DNA of 64,000 bases from a virus. Where the stretch lies: positions 1 to 64,000 of IMG/VR virus record IMGVR_UViG_3300035670_007545; one strand, 5' to 3'. Numbering within the stretch: position 1 is the first letter of the stretch; every line of letters begins with the position of its first letter. Positions 9,001 through 49,215 of the stretch are shown one piece after another. A program made the translations under genes and the position numbers. The notes under the pieces are model-generated. The model made no database searches, was not told where the DNA came from, and saw nothing but the letters and a program-made list of their open reading frames with translations.

Positions 9001-10721
9001 AACCCCCTAAATAAACTTCCACTCATCCATTCACTAAAATCAGCATTCAAATCAACTGGCTCAATAAATAAATAAGCATCAAGTTCTTCTGGAGTTGTTG
9101 GTGTCACAGTTGGAGTTATGGTTGGCGTTGGTGTTTTTGTTCTTGTTGGTGTATTTGTTGGTGTTATGGTACTTGTTGGTGTTAAAGATGGAGTTCTTGT
9201 ATTTGATGGTGTTATAGATATGGTTGGGGTAATACTTGGTGTTATAGATATGGTTGGGGTTACAGTTGGTGTTGGTGTTGGTGTTGTACATTCTATCTCA
9301 ATGGTTACACCAATTAAGAATTGTTCTCTGGTTATATTATCATATAATGGTGTTGTGTTTATTGAATTAAGATATATATCAAATGGACCTTTTGAATTGG
9401 ATGCCGGATTTAATTGCAAAAAATACCTTGAACAAGCTGTAACACCTGTTATGGTATTCTCAACACTATTCACACATATTGGATCTGTATTTATTACAAT
9501 TATTTTATATAATGGAAGATTTGTTGGTGTTATAGTAGGTGTTGGTGTTATAGTATTTGTTGGTGTTGGTGTTGGTGTAATAACAGCACAGTTATCAATT
9601 GTCCCCCCACTAAAAATCCTATGAATCATATTAGATGATGTACTTGTAAAGTAACCTACAACAATTATCTTTCCACTATCTAATACTTCACTATCATATA
9701 TTGCACTAATATTTATAGAAGTATCCATATTAAACGTGGGGTCAATAGTACCATCTGTGTTTAAACGTATAAATTTATTTGCTGAATAACCTGAATATGA
9801 TGAAAATTCTCCACCAACAAGAATTTTATTATCTGCCTGTATAGATACATCAAAATCACCTCCACTATTAAATCCTGTTCCAATAGTAAATGAATTATCA
9901 ATACTCCCATCTGTGTCTAATCTTACAATTCTATTTTTTGAAACACCAGAATATGTTGTAAAACCACCAGCAACTAATATCTTCTGATCTGATTGTAAGG
10001 TCACATCTGTAACAAATGTACCATTAAAACCTGTACCTATGCTAAATGTGTTATCAATACTACCATCACTATTTAATCTTACAATTCTATTTTTTGAAAC
10101 CCCAGAATAAGAAGTGAAATATCCAACAACAAGAATTTTACCATCACTCTGTAATGCAGATTCAAATGTTGAATCACTAAAACCTGTACCTATGCTAAAT
10201 GTGCTATCAATACTCCCATCAGTATTTAATCTTACTATCCTATTTTTTGAAACTCCAGAATATGAAGTAAATCCTCCTGTAACTATTATCTTACCATCTG
10301 GTTGTAAAGTCATTTTGTTTGGTGCATATGTTGTATAGTTGGATAACCCTATACCTACAACAAATGTATTATCAATAGTTGCATCTACATTTAATCTTAT
10401 AATTCTATTTATTGAAACCCCAGAATATGAAGTAAAATATCCTGCAACTAATATCTTTCCATCTGTTTGGACTTTGATGTCTGTAACTGTATTGTTGAAT
10501 CCTGTTCCTATATTGAAACTTGTATTTATTGTCCCATCTGTGTTTAAATTGATAATGTAATTGCTTGTAAATCCTGAATATTGTGTAAATGAACCCCCAA
10601 CAAGAATTTTACCATCTGATTGTCTTGCCAATGCACTTGCTGTATTATCAAAACCCCCATTGGTGTTGTAACAAGTTGTTTCTAAAAACACATTAATTGG
10701 ATAATCTTCAAATTCTAGCAT
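6087..10721 (-). CDS. Giant modular adhesin: delta-60 repeat propeller, linkers, Cys-rich module, C-terminal FISUMP domain
   Basis: 1544 residues. Residues about 20-380 carry seven repeats of about 50 residues with the core [15 protein letters not shown] and an [RN]L[ND]xDGxIDxxF tail, characteristic of the delta-60 (DUF5122) family, which probably folds as a beta-propeller. Thr/Pro/Asn linkers then alternate with a Cys-containing module, a beta-rich domain (about 560-750) and a Cys-rich module ending in [19 protein letters not shown]. Very long TPTNTI / TPTVTE linkers follow, partly made of 54-bp DNA repeats. The last 170 or so residues are a FISUMP domain ([29 protein letters not shown], closing VRCIKD). 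FISUMP has a C-type-lectin-like fold, so this end is the likely ligand-binding tip. The gene follows the 183-residue linker protein with a 6-bp gap. Confidence 0.85.
7441..7602. repeat. Three perfect 54-bp coding repeats
   Basis: Positions 7441-7494, 7495-7548 and 7549-7602 are identical 54-bp units encoding 18 residues of TPTNT/TPTVTE linker. Diverged copies flank them from about 7405 to 7770. The identity of neighbouring copies against the divergence of outer copies indicates recent duplication, either by slippage or by unequal recombination. Confidence 0.95.
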
Positions 10722-10727
10722 ACTATA

Positions 10728-11279
10728 TTAACAATCTATTATCTTAAAATAACTACAAGAATTGAAATCCTTGATGGTTATCATTATTTGATTTGCCCCA
10801 TCAAATATTGTTGGAACACCTATTACAATAGGTAATGAACTTGTATTCAGAATGGTTGCCACATAAGTCTCATAATTTCCATTTATATCTGACATATAAA
10901 CATATAATGGTGTTGTTCCAGTTAAACCATTTAAGGTGATTGTGTTATTTGTTGTTGGTGTTGGGACATATCCTGGGGTTGCAGATGGGGTTGGAGTTGG
11001 AGTTGGTGTGATTGATGTAATATCTGTAATACTATATATAATATCACAATTTATATAACAATTATATTTCTTTGATGTTCTACATCCTGTATTATCTTGA
11101 ATTATGATTGTTATTTGTGGTGCTAAATTAAATATTTCTGGTAAATCAAATGAGACATCCCCCACAATAGGTAATGTGTTTACTTGACCCAAGTATGTTT
11201 CATTACCTCCAAATGCATCAGATACATATATACTTAAAGGAGTTGCACCACTTAAACTTGTAAATATAATATTTGTCAT
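10728..11279 (-). CDS. Two-module adhesin subunit with short Thr/Pro linker
   Basis: 183 residues from the ATG at 11279, which forms an ATGA junction with the upstream stop. An upstream start at 11288 is less likely. Two related modules of about 80 residues are visible. The first begins MTNIIFTSLSGATPLSIYVS, the second TITLNGLTGTTPLYVYMSD, and each ends in a [IT]IxIxDxxxC pattern. They are joined by TPTPTPTPSATPGYVPTPTT. The same module opens the partial gene at the left edge. No enzyme motif is seen. It lies between the SprB-repeat protein and the propeller protein in one run of genes, so a fibre or adhesin component is inferred. Confidence 0.65.
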   Translation of the reverse strand: MTNIIFTSLSGATPLSIYVSDAFGGNETYLGQVNTLPIVGDVSFDLPEIFNLAPQITIIIQDNTGCRTSKKYNCYINCDIIYSITDITSITPTPTPTPSATPGYVPTPTTNNTITLNGLTGTTPLYVYMSDINGNYETYVATILNTSSLPIVIGVPTIFDGANQIMITIKDFNSCSYFKIIDC

Positions 11280-13435
11280 ACTGAACAACTAATGTCATAT
11301 GCTATTTTCAAGTTTATGGTCAATGCCTGTGAGGTTATACTATTTCCTGGCTCTGCTATGATGTTTATTGTGTTTGTTATCAAATCATAAGACACATTTT
11401 CTACACCTGGGATTGTACTCACCAAATTAACTATGGAATCCACATACACTGAATCTGTTGGTACATCTGTTCTTGTATAACCTGTATAGAATGTATTCCC
11501 ACTTGTGATGCCACTTGGTTCTAATGTATATTCTGTTGTGAAGATTGCTGAATTTAAATTACATTTTGGATTAATTATGGTAGTTGACCCACTAAATTCC
11601 ATATTCACCAAATCACTAAACCCCTCATTCAAAAAATCCAATAACCCAAAGTTATTTAATGGTTGTAATGAAAAGTTTTGTGAATCCACAACATATATTT
11701 TATATGATGTGTTGACATTAAAACAATTTATAGATGTTTCTCTTGTTAAGGAACAACCATTTGCATCTTGTAATGTTAAACTATAATTCCCACTTGTTAA
11801 TCCTGTTGCCACTATGTACTGTGGATTTCCAGTCACATTGCTTGACCATGTGAATGTGAATGGTGGTGTACCATTTGTGATTAATGCTGTGATTGTTGCA
11901 TCATTTCCATTTACACAAGATGTGGGGAATAATGAGAAATCAATTCCATTGCTTGACGTAACTTGTATATTCTCCCTCTGTTCACATCCTGTTGCATCCA
12001 CAACTCTTAATTCATATTGTCCATCTGCTATATTCTGGAATGTAACTCCTGTCAAATTTGTGTCAATTATTGAAGTTGTGTTTAAATAAAAATCATATGG
12101 CGGTGTTGCCCCAGTGCTTATATATGCAAATATGCTTCCATTGTTTGAACTACAAGTTGTCCCAGTTGTGGAATAACCTAATGTAAATTTATCTTCTGAT
12201 ATAATTGTTATCTCTTCATCATAATAACATCCTGTGGAATCTACCATATATGCGGTATATGTTCCACTACCTAAATTGTCAAATATATAATTTGTAAATG
12301 TTGTGTTTATGGTTGTGGTGTTTCCACTAGTATCTATTAACCCATAAGTATAAGGACCAGTACCCCCAACCAAACTAATTTCTATTAAACCATTTGATGA
12401 TGAGCAGGTTGAATTTGTTCCATTTATGGAAACAGATGTGACTCCATTGTCATTGTCCAAACTTGTAAAAATAGAATACTCACATAGAGTAGCATCCTTT
12501 ACCAAAATCTCATAAGATCCTGATGTTAAGCCTGTCATTTCAAAATTTCTATTATAGGATATATCATAATATCCTGTATTTGCTGAATAATAGAATGGAC
12601 CAGTCCCCCCACTTATGGTTATATCCAAAGCACCTGTTGCAGTAAAACAAGATGGTTGTGTGGGTATTATATTAACAAGACCCATTGTGGGGGCATTTAC
12701 AATATCTATTGATTTTGTTAAGGTGCAACCTTCTATATCTGTAACACTTACAGAATATGTTCCAGCAGATAAATTTGTTCTCATATCCCCTGTTGAACCA
12801 TCATCCCAAAAATAAGTATAAGGTCCAGGATTTGTTTGACCTGTTATATATATCTTTCCTGTATTTCCACTAAAACAAGGGGATGAATTAATTGTGAAAA
12901 AACCATAATCAAAAGTTGTTGATGATTTAATTATGAAACTTTCTGTTGTTGCTGAACAGCCACCAATATCCTCAATATGTATATAATAAGTATCAGCACT
13001 TAAATTTTCAAAAACAATAAATTCTGAATTAAAAACATTATTAGAAATTAAAGAATTATTGCTACCATATAAATAACAATCTGTTGTTGAAAAATAAGAA
13101 GTTGAAGTTGCTACAACTGAACCATTTGAATTCCCACATGTTGTATCAACTGTTGATAAAATGGATCCACAACATCCACTTGAAACCGGAATATTTATAA
13201 AGAACTCTAAATTTTCACTTAAAGTTGAATCATTCACTCTAACCCCGTATGTTGCAGCAGATAACCCTGTTTGTAGTATGGGAAACTCGTCTGTTGTAAG
13301 TATAACCCCCAAGTCAGGTTCAACCCACTCAATAGTATATGGAGGCGTTCCCCCAGTCAATGATAATGATATTGCCCCAGCACTTGTGCTTGAACAATCC
13401 CCAGTTACACTTAAAAAATAATCAAATGCTGCCAT
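11276..13435 (-). CDS. SprB-repeat adhesin-like protein
   Basis: 719 residues built largely from seven or eight repeats of about 75-85 residues. They carry the SprB-repeat signature: GGTPPYTIEW, GGTGPFYYSA and GGTPPFTFTWSSN, each followed about 35 residues later by LTSGNYSLTLQDANGC or a close variant. SprB repeats are known from the surface adhesins that drive flavobacterial gliding motility and from other Bacteroidota cell-surface proteins. The regularly spaced Cys at the start and end of the repeats could form disulfides. The last 150 or so residues lack repeats and may be an assembly domain. There is no signal peptide, as expected for a virion protein. It is separated by 4 bp from the upstream baseplate gene. 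Confidence 0.85.
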   Translation of the reverse strand: MAAFDYFLSVTGDCSSTSAGAISLSLTGGTPPYTIEWVEPDLGVILTTDEFPILQTGLSAATYGVRVNDSTLSENLEFFINIPVSSGCCGSILSTVDTTCGNSNGSVVATSTSYFSTTDCYLYGSNNSLISNNVFNSEFIVFENLSADTYYIHIEDIGGCSATTESFIIKSSTTFDYGFFTINSSPCFSGNTGKIYITGQTNPGPYTYFWDDGSTGDMRTNLSAGTYSVSVTDIEGCTLTKSIDIVNAPTMGLVNIIPTQPSCFTATGALDITISGGTGPFYYSANTGYYDISYNRNFEMTGLTSGSYEILVKDATLCEYSIFTSLDNDNGVTSVSINGTNSTCSSSNGLIEISLVGGTGPYTYGLIDTSGNTTTINTTFTNYIFDNLGSGTYTAYMVDSTGCYYDEEITIISEDKFTLGYSTTGTTCSSNNGSIFAYISTGATPPYDFYLNTTSIIDTNLTGVTFQNIADGQYELRVVDATGCEQRENIQVTSSNGIDFSLFPTSCVNGNDATITALITNGTPPFTFTWSSNVTGNPQYIVATGLTSGNYSLTLQDANGCSLTRETSINCFNVNTSYKIYVVDSQNFSLQPLNNFGLLDFLNEGFSDLVNMEFSGSTTIINPKCNLNSAIFTTEYTLEPSGITSGNTFYTGYTRTDVPTDSVYVDSIVNLVSTIPGVENVSYDLITNTINIIAEPGNSITSQALTINLKIAYDISCSV

Positions 13436-13439
13436 CTTC

Positions 13440-16421
13440 TTAACAAATTATATTTACATCAATCCCAACATTTATTGTCAATAACTTGTTTTCCGCAATT
13501 TCATCAACACAATCCAAATCAACAAACTTGATAACACCATCAATTGGTGTTGTATAATTAATATCATAATAATATAAATAAGATAATGCATTAATCAATG
13601 ATGTTTCCCATAATTGATTTGTTGGAACATCATCATTGCCAATTCCATCATAAAACTTAACCTTTGCAACAATGGTGGAATTTAAGACAATTTCACTATA
13701 CCAACTAGTCAATACATTACTACCATCACAACTCAAATCAAACTCTTCAATGGTTGAACCAATGGCATTACCCAAAATAACTGGGAAAGATTCTGATGGC
13801 ATTGCTACCATACTAATACCATTCTTAATACATATATCTGAAAATATTGGTGAAGTAATATACTCATCCCCACTTGAAATTGGTGTAAGTGAACTAATAT
13901 TAATATTAGATATAGTTATTTTTGCTGGAGAAGCCCCTATTACATTAATAGGTATAACTCTCTTATAGGCATATTTCTGTTTATGAAATATGGAATTCTC
14001 AAATTTAAGACCTCCCATCCATAAGGTTGTTGCTGGTATCATCTGTTCAACCAACTTAATCCAATATGGATTTATTCCCTCAACAAATTTAATTAATTTT
14101 TCATATGTATATTTGTTTGTTGGGATATTAACTGCATATGGTGCTTCAATATATTTCCAGAAAATAGATTGTAGTGTTGGGTATCCCCCAGTCTTCCCAT
14201 CATTAATGTACATTCTATTACGTACATTAATCATATTCTTTGCAAATGTTGAAGCAAACTCAAAAAATGATTTTGATTTTGGTTGGGGGTTTATCTCTGT
14301 TGCATCAGTACCCCCAGTTGTTGCATAAGGGAACGTCAAGCCACTTTGTGGTATTGGATAATCATTATCATTAGATTGAACCCAAATGTCATACAGAAGC
14401 CCTTGTGAGGGATTTAGGAATATACTTGTATTCTTAACATTTAATATTAACCTTTCATCACTAACAAAATAATATGCATTATAACTACCATCAACAGAAA
14501 CTCTCATTAATGTGTTATCTCTTGACCAAGATTTCTTATTATCCACATATTTAGATAAGGTGAAACCCTCATCAATAAATGGAAACTTTCTAAAAATATT
14601 TAAATACTTATTTCCATATGTGAATGGCTCAAACTCTGTTCCATATTCAACATTTGGAGTAACCCCTGTTCTTGTTGCTATCTCAAGACTCTTATGTTTT
14701 GGCGTTAACTGATACCATCCAGCACCCATCTGAAAGAATAATTGATTACTATCCTTTGGTTGCTTGGGATACCCTGTTTCTTTATCTACAGGGTAATTTG
14801 TTGTATTAAAATTTAAAACTGTTGATGTGGTATTTTGTGTTACTGCTGTGTAAGTTTTACCTGCTAAAGTGTATGTAGTTGGACTAAGTATAGGATCTAT
14901 ATCAACATGATTACCTGTCTGTAATTTATCTAATTCTGAATTAAATTTTATTAAATTTATCTTTTGGTCAGCAATATATATATGTTCATTAAATTCAATC
15001 AATGCCTCTGGCGCACCAAACAATCTTAATATAAACTCAATGGAACGTCTTGTACCCTTTGACTTAAATAAGTAAAATGAATTAATTGTTAAGTTTCTAT
15101 AAAATGCATAATTTAATTCTAATGGTGTTTGTGACCTATTGTATGCAGGGTATTTGAAATCACTATTATTTCCAAATATGGATTCAATCAATGTTTGGTC
15201 ATTTAAGAATTGGAAATCTTCCTGCCACCCTAATGTTTGTCCTAAATTTAATAATAATTGTGATGGTATGTCATTCTTGGGGGTATAATTAACTGAATTC
15301 ATATATGCCAAAGAATCAATGAATTTCTTAACCTCATCAAAACTTCTGCCATATATTTGAAGCATACTCTCAATCCTCCTGTCAAATGTATCAAATTCTT
15401 TTAATGAATCTGAAACAAAAAATCTTGATATAAGATTTGTTCTAGCATTATCAAAATAATTTGCAATAACTTGAACATTATCCAAATAAGTTGTAAACTT
15501 TTCACTTAAAATATCTATATTCCAACCACCATCCAAAGGGAATGTTAAAGTTGTATCAACTAATGTAAATTGCCCATTATCATTCTCTTGTGGAACTTGT
15601 AAAGTCATTGTATAGATTGGGGATGACAATGTATTTAACATATATTGCTCTAACTCATCCAACTTACTCTTTAATACCAAATTATATAGAAAATCACTTG
15701 GTCTAATTATAAATGGTTCAACACTATTGACTGATGACACCCCAAAAGGTGAACCTGAAACAGTAATAGTTAAAACACCCTCTGTTAAACTCTCAGAAGG
15801 ATTCAAGATAATCAATGGATAAAGAACCCCATTTAATGATAAAACATAATCAACATAATATTGTGTCAAATTCCTATACTCTGAAACAGGCATTTCCTTT
15901 GTCAATAAATTAATTGCTGAATTCTGGCTAAAATCAACACCAAAAGGATTATGTATCTTGGTGATGTCAATATCAAAAGTTGTATCATCTGTCACTGCAT
16001 CATAAACAATATTTGTTGCAGTATAACCTGTGTTTAGATTATTATCATAAAAATTAATATCAATAGATGCTGGGAAATTGTTTATAATATTTGTTATGGA
16101 TACAGAAAATCTTTTAGATAACGACCCATACATAACAAAACCCATAACTTGACTTATATCATAATTTGGATAAACATCCAATTCCTTTGCAATTGCTGTT
16201 CTAACATCCCCAATCTCATTAATTCCTAGGCTTTCTAAATTGACTGGTGCATCAAAAACATTTGTTTGAAATTTACGTGGAATTGTTTCAAATATAGATG
16301 GCTTGAATTCAAATGTACCAAAAGTCAACCCACCACCTGTTACAAGTTGGTATCCAACTAGATTGTCAAAAACACTACTAGTTCCAGCAAGGGGGTTATT
16401 CTTAATGTAAATTATTGGCAT
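13440..16421 (-). CDS. Large baseplate/tail protein with P2 gpI-like segment
   Basis: 993 residues. Around residues 388-475 the pattern LLNLGQTLGW followed by YLFKSKGTRRSIEFILRLFG resembles the tail protein I (P2 gpI, T4 wedge-related) signature. There, an LGVDWW-like stretch precedes a KGT..A[IL]...L...G motif. The N-terminal 330 residues and the C-terminal half are beta-rich with no motif I recognise. The start ATG overlaps the upstream stop by one base (TAATG). Its place between baseplate genes (gp25, gp6) and adhesins suggests it links baseplate to fibres. The gpI relation is a pattern judgement by eye and needs profile comparison. Confidence 0.65.
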   Translation of the reverse strand: MPIIYIKNNPLAGTSSVFDNLVGYQLVTGGGLTFGTFEFKPSIFETIPRKFQTNVFDAPVNLESLGINEIGDVRTAIAKELDVYPNYDISQVMGFVMYGSLSKRFSVSITNIINNFPASIDINFYDNNLNTGYTATNIVYDAVTDDTTFDIDITKIHNPFGVDFSQNSAINLLTKEMPVSEYRNLTQYYVDYVLSLNGVLYPLIILNPSESLTEGVLTITVSGSPFGVSSVNSVEPFIIRPSDFLYNLVLKSKLDELEQYMLNTLSSPIYTMTLQVPQENDNGQFTLVDTTLTFPLDGGWNIDILSEKFTTYLDNVQVIANYFDNARTNLISRFFVSDSLKEFDTFDRRIESMLQIYGRSFDEVKKFIDSLAYMNSVNYTPKNDIPSQLLLNLGQTLGWQEDFQFLNDQTLIESIFGNNSDFKYPAYNRSQTPLELNYAFYRNLTINSFYLFKSKGTRRSIEFILRLFGAPEALIEFNEHIYIADQKINLIKFNSELDKLQTGNHVDIDPILSPTTYTLAGKTYTAVTQNTTSTVLNFNTTNYPVDKETGYPKQPKDSNQLFFQMGAGWYQLTPKHKSLEIATRTGVTPNVEYGTEFEPFTYGNKYLNIFRKFPFIDEGFTLSKYVDNKKSWSRDNTLMRVSVDGSYNAYYFVSDERLILNVKNTSIFLNPSQGLLYDIWVQSNDNDYPIPQSGLTFPYATTGGTDATEINPQPKSKSFFEFASTFAKNMINVRNRMYINDGKTGGYPTLQSIFWKYIEAPYAVNIPTNKYTYEKLIKFVEGINPYWIKLVEQMIPATTLWMGGLKFENSIFHKQKYAYKRVIPINVIGASPAKITISNINISSLTPISSGDEYITSPIFSDICIKNGISMVAMPSESFPVILGNAIGSTIEEFDLSCDGSNVLTSWYSEIVLNSTIVAKVKFYDGIGNDDVPTNQLWETSLINALSYLYYYDINYTTPIDGVIKFVDLDCVDEIAENKLLTINVGIDVNIIC

Positions 16422-19906: not shown

Positions 19907-20692
19907 TTAACAATTTTGATTAAACCCAATTAAATTATTTGATGAATAATATCTTAATTCAGTTGGTGTTGGTGTTGGGGTTATGGTTGGTGTCAATGTA
20001 TTAGTTGGTGTCATAGTTGGTGTTGCATTGGTTGTTCTACTTGGTGTAGGGGTTAGTGTATTAGTTGGAGTTGATGTTGGTGTTGGTTGTACCTCACAAT
20101 CATCACAACTTTGATTTGTGCAATTACAACCGCACTCTGGTAATATCATATTAAATCCACAACCATTTGATATTAAACCATCATTACCCATATCTTTTCT
20201 TGCACATATTTTAAATTCAAGACCATTATCATCTTCTAATATAGTTATTGAATCTTCAACCCCATTGCAATTATAATATGTTGTTGTGCATAATCCCCCA
20301 AATGTATTAGCGATAACACTATGGCAAACACATAAATTATTATTACATGTTGGCGTTACTGTTGGAGTTATTGTAGTAGTTGGTGTTATAGTTGGTGTTG
20401 GTGTAAATGTTGCACTTGGTGTTGGTGTAAATGTGACACTTGGCGTAGGGGTAGGTGTTGGTGTTGGTGTTGAGGTATTTGATGGATCAGGAAACCCCTC
20501 AACCAATCCCTTATGTGTAAAGCGGACAACCTCATAATCAACTATTGCATTTATGGAATTTGTTAAAACTTCCTCACCAAAACTATTTATAGTATCTTGA
20601 TGCCCAACAATGTCAAAATCCATCTTAATGGGCAAACTAATTGTTAAGTCATTAAGTCTTGGTTGCAATAATCTATATTTATTCACAGTCAT
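19907..20692 (-). CDS. Thr/Pro-linker protein with Cys-rich core
   Basis: 261 residues. An N-terminal domain of about 70 residues (MTVNKYRLLQPRLNDLTISL) is followed by a TPTPTPTPSVTFTPTP linker. A Cys-rich core (about 114-200) comes next, containing CNNNLCVCHSV and CGCNCTNQSCDDCE. A second linker precedes a C-terminal tail of about 20 residues. The dense Cys pairs suggest disulfides or metal binding, but no known zinc-finger spacing fits clearly. The start overlaps the upstream gene by 14 bp. It may be a short fibre or stalk. Confidence 0.65.
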   Translation of the reverse strand: MTVNKYRLLQPRLNDLTISLPIKMDFDIVGHQDTINSFGEEVLTNSINAIVDYEVVRFTHKGLVEGFPDPSNTSTPTPTPTPTPSVTFTPTPSATFTPTPTITPTTTITPTVTPTCNNNLCVCHSVIANTFGGLCTTTYYNCNGVEDSITILEDDNGLEFKICARKDMGNDGLISNGCGFNMILPECGCNCTNQSCDDCEVQPTPTSTPTNTLTPTPSRTTNATPTMTPTNTLTPTITPTPTPTELRYYSSNNLIGFNQNC

Positions 20693-22322
20693 CTATTACC
20701 GGTTTTACAATTAAAGGATTATCATCATTATTTGTCAATTTTAGAAATTTCTGTTCATAATAATCATATCCCTCTGGAAACAACTTAAAAACATTATTAA
20801 CAAAAGGATAAAAGGAATTATTTATAAATGGATAATTAACACCATTATTATTCTCATCAAAAAATCCAACACTATAAATATCCCTCCACCTAAATTGCCC
20901 ATCAACAGTTGAATAAAAAGCATAATTTGGTATAATATCTGCCAAGTTTTTATCCACCGTTTCAACATAATCTGAAAATGCTTTTAATTGCAATTTATTG
21001 TGGGGTTTATAATAATATCCTTTCTCATTATCATTTATATCAAATATTGGTGAATGTTTTATCTTATAATAAAAATCTGAAATAACTCTTTCTATTTGCT
21101 CATATTCATTATATTCACAAAAATCACCATCAAATTCAGTTGGGGTTACATAATAAAAGAACTCCTTATTATCATTATCAAAGTAAGAGGTTGTGCCTAT
21201 ATTACTATTAGATTTTGGATTCTTACTGTCCCACCATACCTTATTATTTTTAAGAATGTTAAAACCCCAACCTTTCTTCATCCTACCATCCTTTGATGCA
21301 AAAAACCCAGATTGCCCTTTGAAAACAATTGTCAAATATAATTCAGTTAGAGGTCTATTATGATTATCTACAACTCCATCAATATTTATTTCATTCTGTA
21401 ATGTAAAATTATAAGCATAATTTGATTCTTTTATATAACCTGAAGATTTCTCATTATTATAACTCAAAATACTCTTGCCATCAAAAACACCCCTTTGAAA
21501 CCCAGATTTTGTAACAATCAATTTGTCACCCCCATCAATAACCTTATGCTTTCTAATATAATATTTTGAGGTTGTTTCCCCAGAATTGCCCCCAATAATA
21601 ACACGTTTTAATGTGTTTGGAACATTTGATTTAATCTGGTTATTAACATTAAGAATATTGATAATATATTTCTCTGAACCATAAGAATAATCACCAAATG
21701 AATATACATCATACACAACGCCATTTATCAAAACACTTTCCCCCTCCTTAATGTTATGCTCAATGCTACAAGTAAGTTTCACCATGTTGAACCCATTTAT
21801 CACTACTTGAAGGCCAATAAATGGTATTCCATCTTCTGCAACCCAATCATAGAAGATATCTCCCATTTTGATGTTAAGACTTTGCTTACTGTCCCCACTA
21901 TAAGGATAAGTCAAATAATAATTCCAATTATAGTTAAATGCTTTTGATGTATCATAACCAAATGCTGTTAAGGTGGGGGGTCTAAAAAAATCAAATTCAT
22001 ATGCTTGAAGCAACCCCTTCTTCACATTTTCATCTTGCAAATAAACTAAATCCAATAATGGATATATTAATTCGTTTCTATATTTACTAGTTGTAATGCC
22101 AGAATATGAATTATTATATGTGAAATTTATGTTAAAAACTGGTCTTATCTTAAATGATTTGTTCTTTTCTTGCTCATATAAATTCTTTAAATCAACATTA
22201 ACATCCCTATCAAACTCAATGAGTTCTTTCCTTGTTGATTCCAACTCAATTGATATCTGTGCATTATCATCATCAGATACCTTATTCTTATACACACTTG
22301 GAACAATATTATACTTATTCAT
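20679..22322 (-). CDS. Large virion protein near the baseplate wedge genes, function unknown
   Basis: 547 residues, Tyr-, Asn- and Lys-rich. It begins with a charged, possibly helical region (SIELESTRKELIEFDRDVNV) and then beta-rich sequence. A WGF...VWWDSKNPK stretch lies near the middle and the C-terminus contains GQFRWRDIYSVGFFDENNNG. I recognise no family. The start overlaps the end of the 1697-residue gene by 8 bp, so the two are probably coupled. By order after gp25, gp6 and the giant protein it occupies the place of T4 gp8, but I see no sequence evidence for homology. Confidence 0.6.
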   Translation of the reverse strand: MNKYNIVPSVYKNKVSDDDNAQISIELESTRKELIEFDRDVNVDLKNLYEQEKNKSFKIRPVFNINFTYNNSYSGITTSKYRNELIYPLLDLVYLQDENVKKGLLQAYEFDFFRPPTLTAFGYDTSKAFNYNWNYYLTYPYSGDSKQSLNIKMGDIFYDWVAEDGIPFIGLQVVINGFNMVKLTCSIEHNIKEGESVLINGVVYDVYSFGDYSYGSEKYIINILNVNNQIKSNVPNTLKRVIIGGNSGETTSKYYIRKHKVIDGGDKLIVTKSGFQRGVFDGKSILSYNNEKSSGYIKESNYAYNFTLQNEINIDGVVDNHNRPLTELYLTIVFKGQSGFFASKDGRMKKGWGFNILKNNKVWWDSKNPKSNSNIGTTSYFDNDNKEFFYYVTPTEFDGDFCEYNEYEQIERVISDFYYKIKHSPIFDINDNEKGYYYKPHNKLQLKAFSDYVETVDKNLADIIPNYAFYSTVDGQFRWRDIYSVGFFDENNNGVNYPFINNSFYPFVNNVFKLFPEGYDYYEQKFLKLTNNDDNPLIVKPVIDDCE

Positions 22323-25300
22323 TTAAATATTTTGTTTTAAACTTATCCATAGCAGAAAATCCCTTCTTAATACCAAAATAGAAATGAAATGGCGCTCCAA
22401 CTATAAAAGATTTAGTAAAATTATTATCGTCTTTATTATATTTGCCATCTTTTTGTGCAAAAATATAACCCCTATCATTATTATAACTCAAATCATAAGA
22501 TGAATCTGAAAAGTAATCTGTTGTTGTATAATTTTTCACACTTGAAGGATTATTTGGCTTAATACGTTCAAGAGATTGGTATCTTTTATTCTTAATATCT
22601 GTTTGTGCTGTTCCCCAATTATTCTTTTCAGTTCCAAAAATTGTTCTTGAAGTTTTATCCAAATTCCAAGAATAAAATGGCACATCTTGCGACTTATTTC
22701 CATAATTTTCTATAACTAAAGTATTTGTTTCCCCTCTCCTAAAATTAACTCTACCTGGGGTGATATGGTCTTTTAATTGCAAATCGGTTTGTGATGATGA
22801 ATAGAAGACACCCATATAGTTTTTATCTTTGCTATTAGAACTCTTTTCACTAAAAATTATAGTTGGTGAATTATCTGTTTTAAACTCATACAATTCTGGT
22901 GAAAATTTAACAACACCAAATTCAGAGTTGATTGATAATAATTGAGCCAAATCCCCATCTATCTTTTTCCCATCTCGGCTAAAAAATGAATTTAAAACCC
23001 TTTCGCTCCTTAAAAAATTAGAATCCAATATCCTACTAATAACAAAAAAATTAACTAAATCAGAATTATCATAATGACTTGTGGGGTTGATTGAATTCAC
23101 AACATAACCATAACTACTAAAATTATTAAATGATGCCTCCTGCCTATTCTTAACACCTAAATTAACAATTGTAGTTGGATACATCAAGTTATAATTATTT
23201 AACCTAATATTACTATTACTATCTTTTGTATTATTATTATTACCAACAAATTTAGTATCATAATATGGTGAACTTCTATAATAAAAATTATTTGTATCTT
23301 CATCATAATAAACCAAGTCTTTGCAATATTCAGGATTTGCCCTGTTTGTGTTTACCCTAAAAGAAAACATAAATAAAGAACCATTTACCCAGTTGTTTAC
23401 AAATGTTTCAGAAATAATACCTCTACATATTCCATAATTCAATTTAAATCTAAAAATCCATTCACGAAAAGCAACAAAATCTTTAAGTAAATCAAGTATT
23501 GGTCTTCTAACTAATTGGTAACACCCATCCTTTATATAAGTTTCTTGATATTTTTTTGATGTACATTCCTCATTTATTGTTAATTTACCTGCAACATTTG
23601 AATAACAAGAGTATGGGACCAATTTATTGCATAAATTAAATGTATTCAATACATCCGAAGCATTTGGTAAACCAGAAATATCATATCCACCTATACTAGC
23701 ATCAAAAAGTGGATTGGATTGAAGAGACACCCCCTCACCCTGTGAAGATTTGGGGTATGTGTAAATCCTAAAATTATTATTCTGTTGTAATACACCAACA
23801 CTATTATTAATCCAATTCTTCCCATCTAATCCATCTGATGTTGGAAGTCTATCTGTTCTTAACACTACCTTATTATTAGCACGTAATAATTTTCTATCTT
23901 TCAACTCAAGATGCGAACTATATGAAAAATATAACATTAATTTTGGTTGCCTAAATAACATCCCCACAAGATCAAAAATACCAAGAAGATAAATTAAATC
24001 AGTTGTATCCCCATCATATTGGTTATTATCTTTCACATTACCAATTCCATTCATATAAGTACCACCATTAAAATCCAATCTTGATAAATTGTATTTTGAA
24101 TCAAGTAAACTACTTGGTGTGTTTTTTGGGAAATATTTATCTGTACCGGCACGTTCACCATTTTGTATAAAGAAATTATCATCCACATCAAATGGATATG
24201 CTTTTGTCCAGTTTTTTAAGAATTTAACTCTAAAATCATTAAGTCCTAATTTTGATATTTGTTTCCTTGTTATTGGACTTCTATTATTTAATATACCAGC
24301 ATAATATGAAATAGCATCTGTTTTGTATGGTGCATAATCTTGTCCAGGTTCAAATACATATGAATCAAATGAAATATCATTTTGGTCTGTTAATGTTTGT
24401 ATTGTTAAATTATTACTATAAATGCTCCCATTATTGAAATCATTAAGTTTTTGTATTGGTATATTTAATTTGGTATTAATAGTGAAACTAACTTGATCCT
24501 CATTGTCATAACCAAAAATCTTACCTAGTCCATATTTGTTTGTATATTCAGGTGAATATGGATCCACACCCCTCTGTATAACTAAAACATATTGATTTTC
24601 TATATTTTGAAAGTATTCAATTGGGTTATTTATAATCAACTCATCCCCAACAACAGCTTGATTCCCCAATTTAACCCTTAATACTGCAGGTGATGTTAAT
24701 ACACTTGGTAAATAACCTTTTTTTGTTTTGTCTGACATTTTAATATAATCAAAATATGTCATACCTGTCAATACTTGGAAGTATTCCAAATCAGAAGCAT
24801 AGTAAGATGTGTTAGTTATTCCAGTTAAAACTGGTAATGTGTATGTTTTTGTTTCATCAGTATCTTGCGTTGCGGCATATTTAACAGTTATAGTTTTATT
24901 TTGTTCAGTTATTTTAATAGAACCTGGTTTCCCAAAAAGAACCTCCCCATCTACTGTTGTAGCACTATATTTGAAATTTGTATCTTTTGACAAACTACTA
25001 TTAACAAAACTTAATAACTCCCCTGTCTCAATTAAAACATCAGATAAAACAACAATAACATTGTCATAATGATAAGTCCCTCTATTTAAATTATTTGCAA
25101 ATGAAACTTTTATTTTATTTTTACCAGAAAAATAATTATCTCTCAAATTAAAATAATTAATTCTTTCACCAACTGGTAATGTTTCACTATAAACTGAAAA
25201 ATTCTTTGCAAAGGTAGATAACATATATTTGTCAGACCTTGGCATTTTGATGTCTGTTTCACCAACATTTTTAGGTTTCACACCAGATGAGTTTGTTGTC

Positions 25301-27408
25301 CTACCCGCAATAGCTTGTGTTAATGCAAAAAGCATTAATGGTTTATCTTCTTCATACAAAGTATCATCTACATATTTTTTATCTTCTCTTTCAACAATAT
25401 CTTTTAAATTAGTCCAATTAAAGTTTTGAGAAAAATTATCATAATATAAAGTATTATTTGATAATTGTGATAATAACCCATTATTTTGATTTGACCCCTC
25501 CAATTCAACATCCACTTCTTCAATTTCACAATCACAAAGTTCACAATTTGGATATGTTATATTAGGTAAGTGTATTTTTTTTATTTTTCTTCTTATTATT
25601 TTTTTAAAATTTTTTATGAGAAATATATTCAATACTGTTAATGCAACCAATTCTGCAATTTGTATAATTGCTTGTCCAAACAAAAATGCACTAAACATTG
25701 GACTAAGTGGATTTAAAGTTGCAAGAGTAATTCCTGCTTCTGTAAAGTAATATAATATAAAGTTAATTTGTTTAGCCAATAAAAAATTAACTAAAGTAAG
25801 TATTGCTGGTAGTAGTATTACACCAAAAAAGTTCCACAAAAATGCAACCAAATGATATCCAAATATTAAAGGAATATTAATAAATTGCAATATTTGTACA
25901 ATAAGGGAAAATAAAAAATATAGTAAATCAAAGTTCTTAACCCCATCGTTAACTGGATACTTATTAACATTTTGCTCACAACTTCTATCTGAAATTTCTT
26001 TTATTCCTATAAATTTACCTTGTGATGTGCCGCCTTGATACTGATCAACCAACCCCGCAACTGTATATACCTTATTATATTCAAATTCATAAAAAGTATC
26101 TTCACACCTTATTGCAGCATCTTTATTTGTATATCCATCCCAATCCAAACCAAAATAATATGAACCTGCTAATTCTTTTTTTCTACTATCAATAGTAGAA
26201 TTAATAGGATCACTACTACCCCCAATATTCCAACCATACTCCTTAATGTTTGGTACTAAAAAATGTGCTTTTCTTGAGGTGTCTGTTGAGTTATCAACAT
26301 CCTGCCATTTTACCTTAAATCTATATTTACCTTTTGTTGGTATTCCTATTTTCTCATCATTTGTTATTATCTGATTTCCGTTTTCATCTGTAACAACATA
26401 GTCCAAATTCATAGGTAATTCAACAACCCAAGCACCATCCCCATCTATAACTCTACCATTATTACCTAATTCATATTGTTCAAGAATGGGCAAACCATTT
26501 TCATCAAGATTTTTTGTTTGCCTTATTGCCAATATTTGACCAGGACCGGTTTCAAGTTGGCACAAATTACCCATACTTTCCTTTACTCGGCAATTAATTC
26601 TTACACTATCTATATTACTTGTTCCAAATATTGAACCAATGAAAATAGATGTTGGCTGTATATCAATATTAGCATCATCCCTTAAATCAAAATCAACCCT
26701 ATTTATGGTTGAATCACAAGTTTCAGGATTACCCCAAAGTGGGGATATGGTAATACCTTTTGATAAAGAAACAATCTGCGGCAAAGAATTTAAATCTGAT
26801 GATTTTTGAAATGAATTACCCTTAAATTGCGCTTCTGTTGCCCTACCCATTCTAATCAAATCTTGGGGGGTCAATGAATATTCACCCATATCTGACAAAT
26901 CAAGATCCATTAGTATGGTATAACTTCCAACAGGAACACCAAATATCATGTAATCCCCACTTGAATTTGTCTTTACTGTATATTTGTAATACTTCTCATA
27001 TACCTCAATGGCTTGACCATCAAACATAACATCATTCAATGAGGGAAATGTTCCTGTTGCAACATGCCCAGGATATGATGGTTCATATGGTAATAAGTTA
27101 TACCTATAACCATCCTCATTCTTATCATTTATTGACTTATATGGATATATTGAGGTGATTAACTCATTATTCTTGTCCTCTTCACTTAATGGAATAAAAA
27201 TTGAAATCCTAGCATTTGGAATACCAAAACCATTATTTGCAGTAACTCTACCCGCAACAACTCCATAGTTTGCACAATCTAATGTATAAACATCTGATTG
27301 CCTTATTTTGAAAGATAAAATCTCAAGGAATTCAATATTTTGGTCTAACTGAAAATTGACAACCTTATCTTGACCAATTTCAGTCCTAATTCTAAAACTA
27401 TTTTGCAT
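22315..27408 (-). CDS. Giant baseplate-region protein with carboxypeptidase-regulatory-like domain and multi-pass hydrophobic segment
   Basis: 1697 residues, directly after gp6 and so at the position of T4 gp7. Residues 48-170 (VVAGRVTANNGFGIPNARI ... TNSSGDYMIFGVPVGSYTI) follow the pattern of CarboxypepD_reg beta-sandwich domains, which are common in Bacteroidota. Residues about 493-598 are strongly hydrophobic, enough for four membrane-spanning helices. A basic stretch (KNFKKIIRRKIKKIH) and a Cys cluster (CELCDC, 622-627) follow. Such a segment is unusual in a virion protein. The remaining 1000 or so residues are Asn/Tyr-rich with no motif recognised. The start lies 16 nt after a TATTTATA box. 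Structural role is inferred from context. Confidence 0.7.
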   Translation of the reverse strand: MQNSFRIRTEIGQDKVVNFQLDQNIEFLEILSFKIRQSDVYTLDCANYGVVAGRVTANNGFGIPNARISIFIPLSEEDKNNELITSIYPYKSINDKNEDGYRYNLLPYEPSYPGHVATGTFPSLNDVMFDGQAIEVYEKYYKYTVKTNSSGDYMIFGVPVGSYTILMDLDLSDMGEYSLTPQDLIRMGRATEAQFKGNSFQKSSDLNSLPQIVSLSKGITISPLWGNPETCDSTINRVDFDLRDDANIDIQPTSIFIGSIFGTSNIDSVRINCRVKESMGNLCQLETGPGQILAIRQTKNLDENGLPILEQYELGNNGRVIDGDGAWVVELPMNLDYVVTDENGNQIITNDEKIGIPTKGKYRFKVKWQDVDNSTDTSRKAHFLVPNIKEYGWNIGGSSDPINSTIDSRKKELAGSYYFGLDWDGYTNKDAAIRCEDTFYEFEYNKVYTVAGLVDQYQGGTSQGKFIGIKEISDRSCEQNVNKYPVNDGVKNFDLLYFLFSLIVQILQFINIPLIFGYHLVAFLWNFFGVILLPAILTLVNFLLAKQINFILYYFTEAGITLATLNPLSPMFSAFLFGQAIIQIAELVALTVLNIFLIKNFKKIIRRKIKKIHLPNITYPNCELCDCEIEEVDVELEGSNQNNGLLSQLSNNTLYYDNFSQNFNWTNLKDIVEREDKKYVDDTLYEEDKPLMLFALTQAIAGRTTNSSGVKPKNVGETDIKMPRSDKYMLSTFAKNFSVYSETLPVGERINYFNLRDNYFSGKNKIKVSFANNLNRGTYHYDNVIVVLSDVLIETGELLSFVNSSLSKDTNFKYSATTVDGEVLFGKPGSIKITEQNKTITVKYAATQDTDETKTYTLPVLTGITNTSYYASDLEYFQVLTGMTYFDYIKMSDKTKKGYLPSVLTSPAVLRVKLGNQAVVGDELIINNPIEYFQNIENQYVLVIQRGVDPYSPEYTNKYGLGKIFGYDNEDQVSFTINTKLNIPIQKLNDFNNGSIYSNNLTIQTLTDQNDISFDSYVFEPGQDYAPYKTDAISYYAGILNNRSPITRKQISKLGLNDFRVKFLKNWTKAYPFDVDDNFFIQNGERAGTDKYFPKNTPSSLLDSKYNLSRLDFNGGTYMNGIGNVKDNNQYDGDTTDLIYLLGIFDLVGMLFRQPKLMLYFSYSSHLELKDRKLLRANNKVVLRTDRLPTSDGLDGKNWINNSVGVLQQNNNFRIYTYPKSSQGEGVSLQSNPLFDASIGGYDISGLPNASDVLNTFNLCNKLVPYSCYSNVAGKLTINEECTSKKYQETYIKDGCYQLVRRPILDLLKDFVAFREWIFRFKLNYGICRGIISETFVNNWVNGSLFMFSFRVNTNRANPEYCKDLVYYDEDTNNFYYRSSPYYDTKFVGNNNNTKDSNSNIRLNNYNLMYPTTIVNLGVKNRQEASFNNFSSYGYVVNSINPTSHYDNSDLVNFFVISRILDSNFLRSERVLNSFFSRDGKKIDGDLAQLLSINSEFGVVKFSPELYEFKTDNSPTIIFSEKSSNSKDKNYMGVFYSSSQTDLQLKDHITPGRVNFRRGETNTLVIENYGNKSQDVPFYSWNLDKTSRTIFGTEKNNWGTAQTDIKNKRYQSLERIKPNNPSSVKNYTTTDYFSDSSYDLSYNNDRGYIFAQKDGKYNKDDNNFTKSFIVGAPFHFYFGIKKGFSAMDKFKTKYLNE

Positions 27409-27487: not shown

Positions 27488-29323
27488 TTAAATAATGGTC
27501 AATCCATTATTTGTCTTCACCTTTACTGTTATATCTCTTTCTGGATACCTTATATGATATATCTCATTTGAGTCAGCATAGATAGTTTCATCAGTTGCAC
27601 GTATAATTCTATTTGATGCTGGTGGATAATACCCAACAACTGGCTCACCACCAGAATAGTTGCCCCCAACCAAATTTTTGAATACAATAGCTGACACAGT
27701 AATCACCCCATTCAAATTCTGAATACTGCTCTTTATCTCAGATATATTTATGTCCTTACCCAACTGAATGTTCTGTGGTATGAAATAATTATTTATTGTT
27801 GAAATAATGTTATTAACAATATCTTTTGATGCAAACCCTGCTGATATGGTAACAGCCGCCTCAACACCAACATCTATAACTTTTGCAGATGAAACAACAA
27901 TATAATCATTTATCATCCTATAATTTGATAAATAATTTGCAATATTGTCTGTCAAAAATCTTGAATTATCACTAATCAATTTCCCATTTGCATCATAAGA
28001 CAAAACAAGAACTTGTATTTTATTATCAACCTCTTGAACTGATACTTTTGCTGGTGCACCAAATTGTGGTGGCATATTACGTATAATTGATTCATAATCA
28101 TTTATGGTAACTGCTCTTTTCTGTGCTGCAAAGTTAAATGATACAAAATTCCTAACTTCTTCTGTACTTGGCAATCCTGCTCCACCAATAGCTGGAAATA
28201 AATTATTAACTCTTAGTGAGTTAATTACAGCTGACTCTTGTGCTGGATTTCCTGCATTCAACCTAAATGAATTAACCCCAATCTGATTAATTGTATTTGG
28301 TCCAAGATTTGTATTTAATCCACCCCCAACTCTATATTGAACAAATAATGTACTATTTGGTTTCAATGTTCTACCCAATGAGAAATTATTCAAATAATTC
28401 TGTAATGTAGGTAATTGCCCTGTTGTTGTGAATTGGTTTAACTGTTCCATTGCTGTATTAACCCCATTACCAAATGTAATCTTCTTAAACCCCTCTGATG
28501 TAAATTCACTTATAAAACGATTATCTGTTTGAATATACTTTCCAACCTTTATACCTGCATTTCCTGTATCTTTTGTTGGGTCAATAATGAAAACCCTATC
28601 CTCTGCCAATGAATCAACCTCATACCATTTATTTGCATCTCCAATGAACTCTGATGATGGGGGAATTGTATTTATTTGTCCATCTTTTAATAACACACTT
28701 GTAATCCCCAAAACATTCTTGTCTGGTAAAAATAATTCAAAAAATGGCCTAACATCAGATGCTGTAATAACTCTCTTAAAAACCTTTGTAACACCATTGA
28801 TAACTGGTTCACGTTTTGTTAAAGTATAACTAATAATATTATTATTTAATTTGTTTGGTATAACTGTTCTATTTGCAAGACCTTGACCATCATAATCTGA
28901 TGAAAAATCAATATCATTTATGCTTTCAAAAATAACACCATTACCCAAGACTTGTGCACCCCTTTCAAGAACCCCAGCATAACTTGCATCAGGCTTATCT
29001 CCAAATGGGGGGACAGTTATTGAAAAATCACACAAGGTCAATGAAGGTCTTTGTCCTGGTATTTTTAAACCATAAGTTCTTGCTATATTATATATAGAAG
29101 ACTTTTGTTGGGCGTATTGTAAAACTGTTTCTTGCAAACTCCTGTCAATATGATAATGTAAATTATCTGCAACAGCAGCATTCAAATCAAGGAAAACAGA
29201 GAATATTGAAGCATCATTAAAATCATTTATTAAATCAGGATAATATGTTCTAACATAATTTAATAATTCAGTTCTTATGCTCTGAAAATCCCTAACACCA
29301 TATGATATCTTTCTATCTGACAT
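27488..29323 (-). CDS. 6: Baseplate wedge protein, gp6 / baseplate J family
   Basis: 611 residues, close to T4 gp6 (660). The N-terminus has the family pattern VRDFQSIRTELLNYVRTYYP ... DFNDASIFSVFLDLNAAVAD, followed by LHYHIDRSLQETVLQYAQ. A middle region with FGNGVNTA and the repeat-like C-terminal half, including GGAGLPSTEEVRNFVSFNF and TINDYESIIRNMP, match baseplate J-like proteins. gp6 dimers join the wedges of the contractile-tail baseplate into a ring. The gene follows gp25 after 1 bp, the same neighbour relation as in many myoviruses, so both are one transcript. Confidence 0.92.
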   Translation of the reverse strand: MSDRKISYGVRDFQSIRTELLNYVRTYYPDLINDFNDASIFSVFLDLNAAVADNLHYHIDRSLQETVLQYAQQKSSIYNIARTYGLKIPGQRPSLTLCDFSITVPPFGDKPDASYAGVLERGAQVLGNGVIFESINDIDFSSDYDGQGLANRTVIPNKLNNNIISYTLTKREPVINGVTKVFKRVITASDVRPFFELFLPDKNVLGITSVLLKDGQINTIPPSSEFIGDANKWYEVDSLAEDRVFIIDPTKDTGNAGIKVGKYIQTDNRFISEFTSEGFKKITFGNGVNTAMEQLNQFTTTGQLPTLQNYLNNFSLGRTLKPNSTLFVQYRVGGGLNTNLGPNTINQIGVNSFRLNAGNPAQESAVINSLRVNNLFPAIGGAGLPSTEEVRNFVSFNFAAQKRAVTINDYESIIRNMPPQFGAPAKVSVQEVDNKIQVLVLSYDANGKLISDNSRFLTDNIANYLSNYRMINDYIVVSSAKVIDVGVEAAVTISAGFASKDIVNNIISTINNYFIPQNIQLGKDINISEIKSSIQNLNGVITVSAIVFKNLVGGNYSGGEPVVGYYPPASNRIIRATDETIYADSNEIYHIRYPERDITVKVKTNNGLTII

Positions 29324-29324
29324 A

Positions 29325-29801
29325 TTATATATTTATTACAACAACTTCACTACCTGAAAAACTATTATTGTTTGTAGTGTATTCTATTTTTATTTTTGCA
29401 GTATTCTGATATGTACCATTCCCAGGTGAACGATAAACCTTGTCCCTGGATGATAATCCAACATCATCAACACTTAACCTATCCCCTTGCACCTCCTCAT
29501 TCTGATCCAAAGGTTCAATGATTATCTTATTTATAACCAAATTTGGTATATACTTTGCAACAGAATCTCTAATATCTGTTTCAATAACATCAAATGACAC
29601 AACATCTAATGGTTCAAATAGAAATTCATATAATCTTGTTCCAAAATCTGGAAGGTAATACCTACTTCCCTTTCTTGTTAATAACAAATGCAATAAAGAT
29701 GCTCTAATCTCATCTGAAGCAGTTTCTGTCATCTTTAAGGCATCCCCACGAAGTGAAGTGTCAAAAGGAAATTCAACACCATATGTAAAACCTTCAGCCA
29801 T
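29325..29801 (-). CDS. 25: Baseplate wedge protein gp25 family
   Basis: 158 residues, with T4 gp25 at 132. It has the family signature: a short N-terminal part, then IRASLLHLLLTRKGSRYYLPDFGTRLYEFLFEP, then DVIETDIRDSVAKYIPNL and a C-terminal two-strand segment. The RxYxPDFGTxLxxxLFEP core is diagnostic of gp25 / gpW-lysozyme-like wedge proteins, which help start sheath polymerisation and anchor the wedge. Its own TATTTATA box lies 15 nt upstream. It is divergent from the only plus-strand gene and upstream of gp6. Confidence 0.95.
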   Translation of the reverse strand: MAEGFTYGVEFPFDTSLRGDALKMTETASDEIRASLLHLLLTRKGSRYYLPDFGTRLYEFLFEPLDVVSFDVIETDIRDSVAKYIPNLVINKIIIEPLDQNEEVQGDRLSVDDVGLSSRDKVYRSPGNGTYQNTAKIKIEYTTNNNSFSGSEVVVINI

Positions 29802-31859: not shown

Positions 31860-33566
31860 TTAAAATAAATCATCTTCTGTTATGCTCTTGCTCTTTTTAT
31901 TATAATCAACTGATTTCTTATAAAAAAAATCTCCCTCCTTTGTTGATAAAATCTCCACATCAAACCATAATGTCTTCTCAATCTCTGTAAAATCAACTTC
32001 AAATACTGATTTCATCCCAATTCTATTTAATGAATTATTAAATCTATTTTGAATGAAATGTTTAATTGTATCTTTTGATAAAAAACTTAATTCACCATTC
32101 TCAAATATCCAATCCAATATTCCACATTCAGCTGCATATGCTTTATGACAAGCTGACACAATCAACGCTTCAAATTCTTCGTCAAACCATTCTGGATTTT
32201 CTTCTTTGATAATGTTGATAAGTTCTGATCCAAAATTACCATGGATTTCTTCCTCCTTTGAGGTAGCTTCAACCACATTTGAAATACCTTTGAATAGATT
32301 TTTCTCCTTGTTGAAGGACATCATAATCAAGAACTGACTAAATAAACTTACATGTTCAATAAACAAGGAAAATAATAATACAGACTTTGTGTACATTTTA
32401 TTCTCTTTACTCCTTGTCCCATCTAAATATTTTGCCAAATAACTGATTCTATTCTTTATAGCAGGAATTTCAATAACAGTCTGGAACTCATTCTCCAATC
32501 CAAGAATTCTTAATAATTGAGCATAAGCATCCTTATGACGAACTTCCGAGTTTCCTGAAATTAAAACTTTGTCATTATATCTAGTCACAATACATCCAGT
32601 AGGAACTGTAACACAATAGATGTTACCATCATAATCTTCAATGGTAGGTTTATCAGTTATAGAAGAAAAGGTGTTAGTTTTTACAAAACTTACATTGTAT
32701 ATATCTTTATCATTAGTTATATCAACTACATACCCAGCAAAAATACCTATAACTTGCAAATTATCTGCAAACAATTTACTAATAGTTTGGTGTTTAATAA
32801 CATAATCACCATTCTGAGTGTCACTATCAAGTTTAGACCCCTCCAATTTTGTTAATTCATAAATAAAAGAATTGCACCACTTTTCAGATTTATCTGATAA
32901 ATCAATACAATCAAAGTTTCCAATATTAATTTTATCATCCAAACTCAACTCATCCACACCCTCATTAACAAATTTACCAGAAAAAGGCAATTTCATATCA
33001 CTACTAAATTTACCAATATCTTTTATAGCCTTCTTTATAATATTACCACTCCTTGTTTTGTAGTAGATATTATGGTTGGGGGTTAGTAATGCATTATATG
33101 TTTGGTTCTCAATCCTATGCATCTTTCCCTTGTAAGGTTCATTGATAATATTACTTGGTAAAACAGATGTCATTGTATTGGTTTCTAAATCATATTGAAT
33201 AACCTCTGTATTATTATCAATATCCTTAAAGTTAACCCAACCTTTTGGTGTTAATATTTCAGTTCCCTCACCATGACATTCGGCAAAAGTCATACCAACA
33301 TCACCAATTTCAGTTATTGGCATCCTCTTATACAAGTCAGCCCAGAATGTTTTTACATTTACCTCAATTTGAGCAATTGCCAACATTGACCTTTTAATAA
33401 CCTCCCTCTCCTCATTTGATATCTTTGTTTTATAATCATCAATATCAGTTGTGAAATTGAATTCAGAGTGTATCCAGTATGAGTGTCTAATTGCATCCTT
33501 ATATGCTAATAAGGATGGATATTCATAAGGCAAAATGTTTATCCTCTTTTCAAAAATGTTCTTCAT
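31860..33566 (-). CDS. nrdB: Ribonucleotide reductase small subunit interrupted by an intein
   Basis: 568 residues, of which about 325 are NrdB and 243 (97-339) an in-frame intein. The extein reads GMTFAE then SEVRHKDAYAQLL across the splice site. The E-x2-H-x3-Y pattern gives two metal ligands and the radical tyrosine, all just after the insertion. Further ligands are in WIHSEFNF, FIEHVSLF and EEEIHGNFG. The protein holds the di-iron tyrosyl radical that starts catalysis in NrdA. A near-match promoter box (TATTTATC) lies 22 nt upstream. It lies 77 bp after the C-terminal half of the split helicase and 11 bp before nrdA. Confidence 0.95.
   Translation of the reverse strand: MKNIFEKRINILPYEYPSLLAYKDAIRHSYWIHSEFNFTTDIDDYKTKISNEEREVIKRSMLAIAQIEVNVKTFWADLYKRMPITEIGDVGMTFAECHGEGTEILTPKGWVNFKDIDNNTEVIQYDLETNTMTSVLPSNIINEPYKGKMHRIENQTYNALLTPNHNIYYKTRSGNIIKKAIKDIGKFSSDMKLPFSGKFVNEGVDELSLDDKINIGNFDCIDLSDKSEKWCNSFIYELTKLEGSKLDSDTQNGDYVIKHQTISKLFADNLQVIGIFAGYVVDITNDKDIYNVSFVKTNTFSSITDKPTIEDYDGNIYCVTVPTGCIVTRYNDKVLISGNSEVRHKDAYAQLLRILGLENEFQTVIEIPAIKNRISYLAKYLDGTRSKENKMYTKSVLLFSLFIEHVSLFSQFLIMMSFNKEKNLFKGISNVVEATSKEEEIHGNFGSELINIIKEENPEWFDEEFEALIVSACHKAYAAECGILDWIFENGELSFLSKDTIKHFIQNRFNNSLNRIGMKSVFEVDFTEIEKTLWFDVEILSTKEGDFFYKKSVDYNKKSKSITEDDLF
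32550..33278 (-). other. NrdB intein (243 residues)
   Basis: The intein starts at Cys97 (CHGEGTEILTPKGWVNF, block A) and has a block B-like LLTPNHNIYYKT. It ends DKVLISGN followed by Ser340. The penultimate residue is Gly instead of the usual His, a variant seen in some inteins. At 243 residues it is too short for a full LAGLIDADG endonuclease. The stretch HQTISKLFADNLQVIGIFAG looks like a remnant of such a domain. It is therefore probably a splicing-competent intein with a degenerate or lost homing function. Confidence 0.9.
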
Positions 33567-47986: not shown

Positions 47987-48034
47987 CCCACAAACTATAG
48001 ATTTGCGGGATTCTGAAATTTAAGTATTCAGAAT
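47987..48034 (-). other. Subterminal hairpins at tnpB 3' end (right-end / guide RNA candidate)
   Basis: Two hairpins follow each other: CCCACAAA/TTTGCGGG with one mismatch (47987-48009) and ATTCTGAA/TTCAGAAT (48010-48034), the latter containing the tnpB stop. IS200/IS605-type elements have imperfect palindromes at the right end, and the guide RNA of TnpB comes from the same 3' region. Exact element boundaries cannot be read from one copy. Confidence 0.5.
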
Positions 48035-49195: not shown

Positions 49196-49215
49196 CTTTT
49201 TAAAATTCAATATAT

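Follow-up and report, generated by a model that had tools for sequence, protein, structure and literature searches.

Results

A membrane-grade segment in a baseplate-region protein

We describe here a protein of 1697 residues, encoded among the baseplate genes of an uncultured contractile-tailed phage, which carries a real, conserved and membrane-grade hydrophobic segment. Gene order supports its placement in the gp7/gpI slot of the baseplate wedge, and the segment may bring the wedge ring into contact with host lipid. The gene (22315-27408, minus strand, stop codon included), which has hundreds of relatives, lies in the window, by which we mean the whole stretch of 64,000 nucleotides analysed, taken from a virus record of 103,274 bases.

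By mapping of the open reading frame, residues 493-598 correspond to 25615-25932 of the window, on the minus strand. These 106 residues have a mean Kyte-Doolittle (KD) value of 1.55 and only 4 charged residues, and the 19-residue peaks of the protein lie at residues 498 (2.12), 527 (2.42) and 580 (2.27). The strong hydrophobicity that the sequence-only reading had placed here is thus located exactly. Indeed, 2000 shuffles of the whole protein gave a best 106-residue window of 0.33 +/- 0.14, with a maximum of 0.98, and the top window of this length in the rest of the protein reaches only 0.02. A chance origin is ruled out by the shuffles together with the conservation of the segment. Transmembrane (TM) grade was judged on the Kyte-Doolittle and White-Wimley hydropathy scales; on the latter, five 19-residue windows were picked in the segment, with a minimum of -14.9 kcal/mol per 19 residues. 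Hydropathy of this grade, as is looked for in an integral membrane segment, is conserved across the relatives.

The basic stretch KNFKKIIRRKIKKIH (residues 599-613; 25570-25614, minus strand) and the CELCDC cluster (residues 622-627) had been said to follow the segment, and both do, the latter within YPNCELCDC (residues 619-627; 25528-25554, minus strand). The remainder of the protein, encoded on the same strand, comprises an N-module, a linker and a C-part. The N-module (residues 1-454; 26047-27408) is a beta-rich Ig/CNA-B-like sandwich with a weak CarboxypepD_reg match and is the most conserved part. The linker (residues 455-493; 25930-26046, minus strand) contains the NKYPVNDGVKNF motif, forms a net negative flank and has an AlphaFold2 confidence of 31-54. 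The C-part (residues 640-1697; 22318-25491, minus strand) is mixed alpha/beta, with a conserved FxNNWVNGSL (at about residue 1336) and a C-terminal YFG motif.

AlphaFold2 modelling of residues 1-1000 with 72 sequences (mean pLDDT 77, pTM 0.43) predicted helices at 495-564, 570-599 and 601-606, with a pLDDT of 59-88, mostly above 70, across the block; the linkers on either side (455-493 and 615-643) have a confidence of 30-54. The buried globular core that would have spoken against a membrane-type segment does not appear in the model, which shows discrete helices between low-confidence linkers. An ordinary soluble globular core is likewise ruled out by the composition of the segment, with its few charges, and by these linkers. 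The proposed number of four helices is roughly right for this protein, given the five White-Wimley windows and the two long and one short helix of the model, although it does not carry over to the relatives, which have from 1 to 5 hydrophobic segments. Besides the helices within 495-606, the partial models predict one at about 1307-1342. In Foldseek searches, the N-half model matched Ig/pilin-like sandwiches alone among PDB entries; its BFVD match was an uncharacterised protein of a myovirus (A0A8S5LA66 of Myoviridae sp. ctPuP5), with 40% identity over 449 columns that seem to correspond to the N-module. The C-half model (pLDDT 73) gave no match below 1e-3.

A conserved core helix and a variable extension

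In almost all of some 190 distinct relatives, a stretch of KD 1.6-3.2 starts within tens of residues from where the N-module ends, and this TM-grade stretch is usually the sole one in the protein. To resolve its parts we used 102 distinct regions from the clade with YPxCxxCxC, a motif present in 117 non-identical relatives; the three Cys of YPNCELCDC are invariant across 26 aligned sequences. The first 42 positions (residues 494-535; 25804-25929, minus strand) form a conserved core helix with a KD of 1.84, and core positions 2-36 carry a mean of 0.43 charges. Polar residues in this core are limited to S501, Q505, Q508, H519 and N526, which lie mutually within 60 degrees on a continuous helix and so form a stripe on one face (100-degree periodicity, shuffle p=0.0008).

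The variable, fast-evolving extension that follows (residues 536-598; 25615-25803, minus strand) is found in 71 of the 102 regions. It is 15-96 residues long there, and its KD of 1.27 compares with -0.38 in the background. The non-synonymous rate of the extension exceeds the N-module rate by a factor of 5-12 in four of five pairs, and the N-module tree requires at least 10 gains or losses of the extension. As this hydropathy is kept while the amino acids change several-fold faster than those of the N-module in those pairs, only the composition of the extension is constrained, a pattern typical of segments that face lipid. Of 97 relatives, 95% have a C-flank with net positive charge, and in none is the N-flank positive. 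Distant clades retain the hydrophobic stretch with a different sequence, some with Asn-rich stripes. One relative of 747 residues (L149; 2870-5110 of its contig) has no hydrophobic element and represents a natural deletion form, and the element is weak in another of 811 residues (L154).

Gene order and comparison with known tails

Directly upstream of the gene, on the same strand, lies that of a gp6 / Baseplate_J-like wedge protein (27488-29323), preceded by that of a gp25-like baseplate wedge protein (29325-29801). A gene for a 547-residue protein, conserved in 153 of 157 loci, lies directly downstream (20679-22322, minus strand). The tail module of the window also holds the sheath gene (59684-62833), the tube gene (57115-57603), a tape measure candidate (54256-56055), and hub and gp53-like genes. 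Multi-segment hydrophobic regions were found in none of the other tail-module proteins of the window, and no membrane segments were found in its likely tape measure. Among 190 loci of the family for which upstream DNA is present, gp6 precedes the gene on the same strand in 183 and gp25 in 182. It is this conserved order of gp25, gp6 and the 1697-residue protein that supports the gp7/gpI wedge slot.

Other observations were made in the same window. A TnpB-like OrfB_IS605 transposase (396 residues, Cas12f1-like TNB domain; 48020-49210, minus strand) is encoded within the tail module, between the gp53-like gene and that of a 2257-residue protein, and residues 829-899 of a 1558-residue tail-module protein (49536-54212, minus strand) weakly match an OmpA-like, peptidoglycan-binding domain. 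Next to the sheath gene lies that of a glucosaminidase-like endolysin (58679-59566, minus strand), which has a hydrophobic segment of KD 2.08 at its N-terminus. In the small subunit of a ribonucleotide reductase (568 residues; 31860-33566, minus strand), a weak Intein_splicing match at residues 114-322 points to an intein-like insert.

The slot is shared with T4 gp7, XM1 gp17, Mu gp48, P2 gpI and TssG, likewise large proteins whose genes come immediately after gp6; in the simpler tails gp25 is close by as well. T4 gp7, though otherwise soluble, also has one membrane-grade hydrophobic helix (about residues 882-910), which is conserved in seven T4-like phages (KD 1.84-2.07); the region described here differs in its position at 493-598, in being longer and variable, and in the absence of the HPVGFGF motif of gp7. 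A hydrophobic helix of this kind is absent from Mu gp48 and P2 gpI. We do not file the protein as a gp7 homolog, for gene order supports the slot and sequence does not. Homology to T4 gp7 was rejected as unsupported by hhalign, PHROGs and Pfam: hhalign of profiles A1 and A4 against seven gp7 proteins gave probabilities of 0.2 and 0.06, and the protein had no gp7-type Pfam or PHROG match. A gp7-like HPxGF motif was not found among proteins of more than 150 residues in the window and three relatives, and gp7 was absent among the Foldseek matches listed for the partial models.

The expectation that such regions are seldom seen in contractile tails stands for most proteins compared, with exceptions. 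Among 20 T4 tail and neck proteins only gp7 exceeds a KD of 1.8, and the P2 tape measure T (2.49) is alone among the tail proteins of Mu and P2 in having a KD above 2. P2 T resembles our protein as a virion tail protein with several TM-grade segments; the 1697-residue protein, however, is beta-rich, is encoded after gp6 and is distinct from the tape measure candidate of the window. An identity as tape measure is ruled out by the position of the gene after gp6 and by the beta-rich N-module. The White-Wimley minima of T4 gp7 (-10.7) and P2 T (-6.0) are weaker than that of the segment. T4 gp7 is annotated with a 'predicted integral membrane domain' and yet is part of solved baseplates; hydrophobicity alone is therefore no proof of membrane insertion.

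Distribution and host

Relatives are numerous (132 in one viral scan, and at least 596 and at least 569 in profile scans), and the hundreds found in IMG/VR mark a group of contractile-tailed phages that is abundant, though uncultured. No cultured phage with a relative was found when the protein and two divergent relatives were searched by tblastn against 50,697 phage records, and none was found on plasmids. Only two contigs in bacterial genomes carry relatives, one from a Prochlorococcus single-cell assembly (L150) and one from a Wolfebacteria MAG (the L149 contig). The former (83.8 kb) has a divergent relative at 10001-14911 together with relatives of gp25, gp6, p547, p297 and p993, and is thus a phage contig; the latter, which also has a p547 relative, is probably one.

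Gene starts in the window are A-rich and without Shine-Dalgarno sequences, and a neighbouring protein of 719 residues (11276-13435, minus strand) has five matches to SprB repeats, which are otherwise known from surface adhesins of Bacteroidota. Both are consistent with a Bacteroidota host, which is probably the host of this virus. In view of the divergent relative on the Prochlorococcus contig, the protein family may extend beyond phages of this phylum. The suggested search for homologs in other Bacteroidota myoviruses thus led to relatives in uncultured phages rather than in cultured ones. In the cultured phages whose gp6 is nearest (Flavobacterium phage immuto, Microcystis phage Mel-JY01 and LR756508), the proteins encoded downstream of it are unrelated and non-hydrophobic.

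Discussion

To explain the segment we favour, at somewhat short of an even chance, contact of the wedge ring with lipid during infection over a permanently buried helix bundle. The protein would be a component of the wedge ring, with six copies expected, in the baseplate of these uncultured phages, and its helical hydrophobic element would sit between the N- and C-modules. The core helix, of about 36-42 residues, would pack on partner helices through its narrow Ser/Gln/His/Asn stripe, and the optional extension would have to be hydrophobic and be free to vary. Folded away in the free virion, the element would contact or enter lipid of the host envelope as the baseplate opens on the cell surface, and would then anchor or seal the wedge ring around the puncture. 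Lipid contact is favoured by an extension that is constrained in composition only and was repeatedly gained and lost, and by the flexible tethers of the element. Also on its side are the near-constant presence of the TM-grade stretch, the White-Wimley minimum, which is below those of T4 gp7, P2 T and the phi29 and T7 membrane-penetrating proteins, the scarcity of charges in the core with its polar residues on one face, the charges of the flanks, and the lack of such a region in the other tail-module proteins of the window. A possible precedent is given by phi29 gp9, whose hydrophobic loops are packed as a bundle of helices in the tail knob tube and, on ejection, leave it as a barrel of helices that is hydrophobic on the outside (PMC6542822). 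There too, a large tail-tip protein, with six copies expected, has a hydrophobic segment for which shielding before infection has been proposed; the phi29 tail, however, is short and non-contractile, and the gp9 loop is rich in Gly and Ala.

Several observations speak against lipid contact. By analogy with T4 gp7 in the same slot, hydrophobic wedge helices may need no membrane. The polar stripe and the flank charges are also expected of a specific protein-protein helix with helix-dipole capping, and at least one short relative lacks the element, with a second nearly so. Virion elements known to enter membranes are, moreover, less hydrophobic: the KD is 1.29 for phi29 gp9, 1.31 for T7 gp14 and 1.44 for T7 gp16, the last two of which act on membranes.

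It is quite possible, if less than probable, that the helices never touch lipid and are permanently buried in a gp6-gp7-type bundle within and between wedges, the extension filling space in the ring. T4 gp7 would be the precedent, as a conserved hydrophobic helix in a protein of solved baseplates, and in XM1, T4 and T6SS it is helix bundles that join the (gp6)2-gp7-type modules (PMC10457771, PMC6300606); the one-face polar stripe of the core and the conserved gp25-gp6 gene order fit such packing as well. Burial sits less easily with an extension of 0 to about 96 residues that keeps hydrophobicity alone beside conserved neighbours, or with a 106-residue segment whose 4 charges cannot make a soluble surface of its own. 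Furthermore, gp6 of the cultured relatives is still about 29% identical, though their proteins in the gp7 slot lack a hydrophobic helix.

The sequence-only reading had raised two possibilities, namely that the segment forms a DNA channel in the host membrane or that the baseplate shields it. Shielding has its T4 gp7 precedent and lipid contact is plausible, but a channel is poorly supported and, in our judgement, very unlikely, as the wedge ring, to which gene order assigns the protein, lies outside the DNA-carrying tube, and on contraction hub and tube traverse this ring (PMC10457771). In favour of a channel, a pore might be lined by the conserved stripe, membrane segments are lacking in the likely tape measure, and the phi29 gp9 loops do form a channel in a short tail (PMC6542822). 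An assembly-time or non-virion role, with insertion into the host inner membrane to nucleate wedge or baseplate assembly, or processing before maturation, is also unlikely, since there is no N-terminal signal, the segment comes only after an N-module of about 480 residues, and in 183 of 190 loci the gene has baseplate genes on both sides. Nevertheless, the hydrophobicity and aromatic content are nearer those of constitutive membrane proteins than of switching virion elements, and the negative N-flank and positive C-flank fit the positive-inside rule.

To conclude, the interaction of contractile tails with membranes is usually credited to the spike, the tube tip or the tape measure. The hydrophobic helix in a wedge-slot protein is of a kind known from T4 gp7; new here is a longer, variable element made of a core and an extension. 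Such a membrane-grade helix at the wedge position in widespread uncultured phages would point either to a lipid-gripping step in contraction or to unusually greasy hinge bundles, and the natural series of relatives, with no element, the core only, or core and extension, makes the question testable. It is conceivable, though less likely than not, that in a large class of contractile-tailed phages the opening of the baseplate drives helices of the wedge ring into lipid of the host envelope. If true, the baseplate would itself be a membrane-active machine, beyond the tube tip or tape measure alone.
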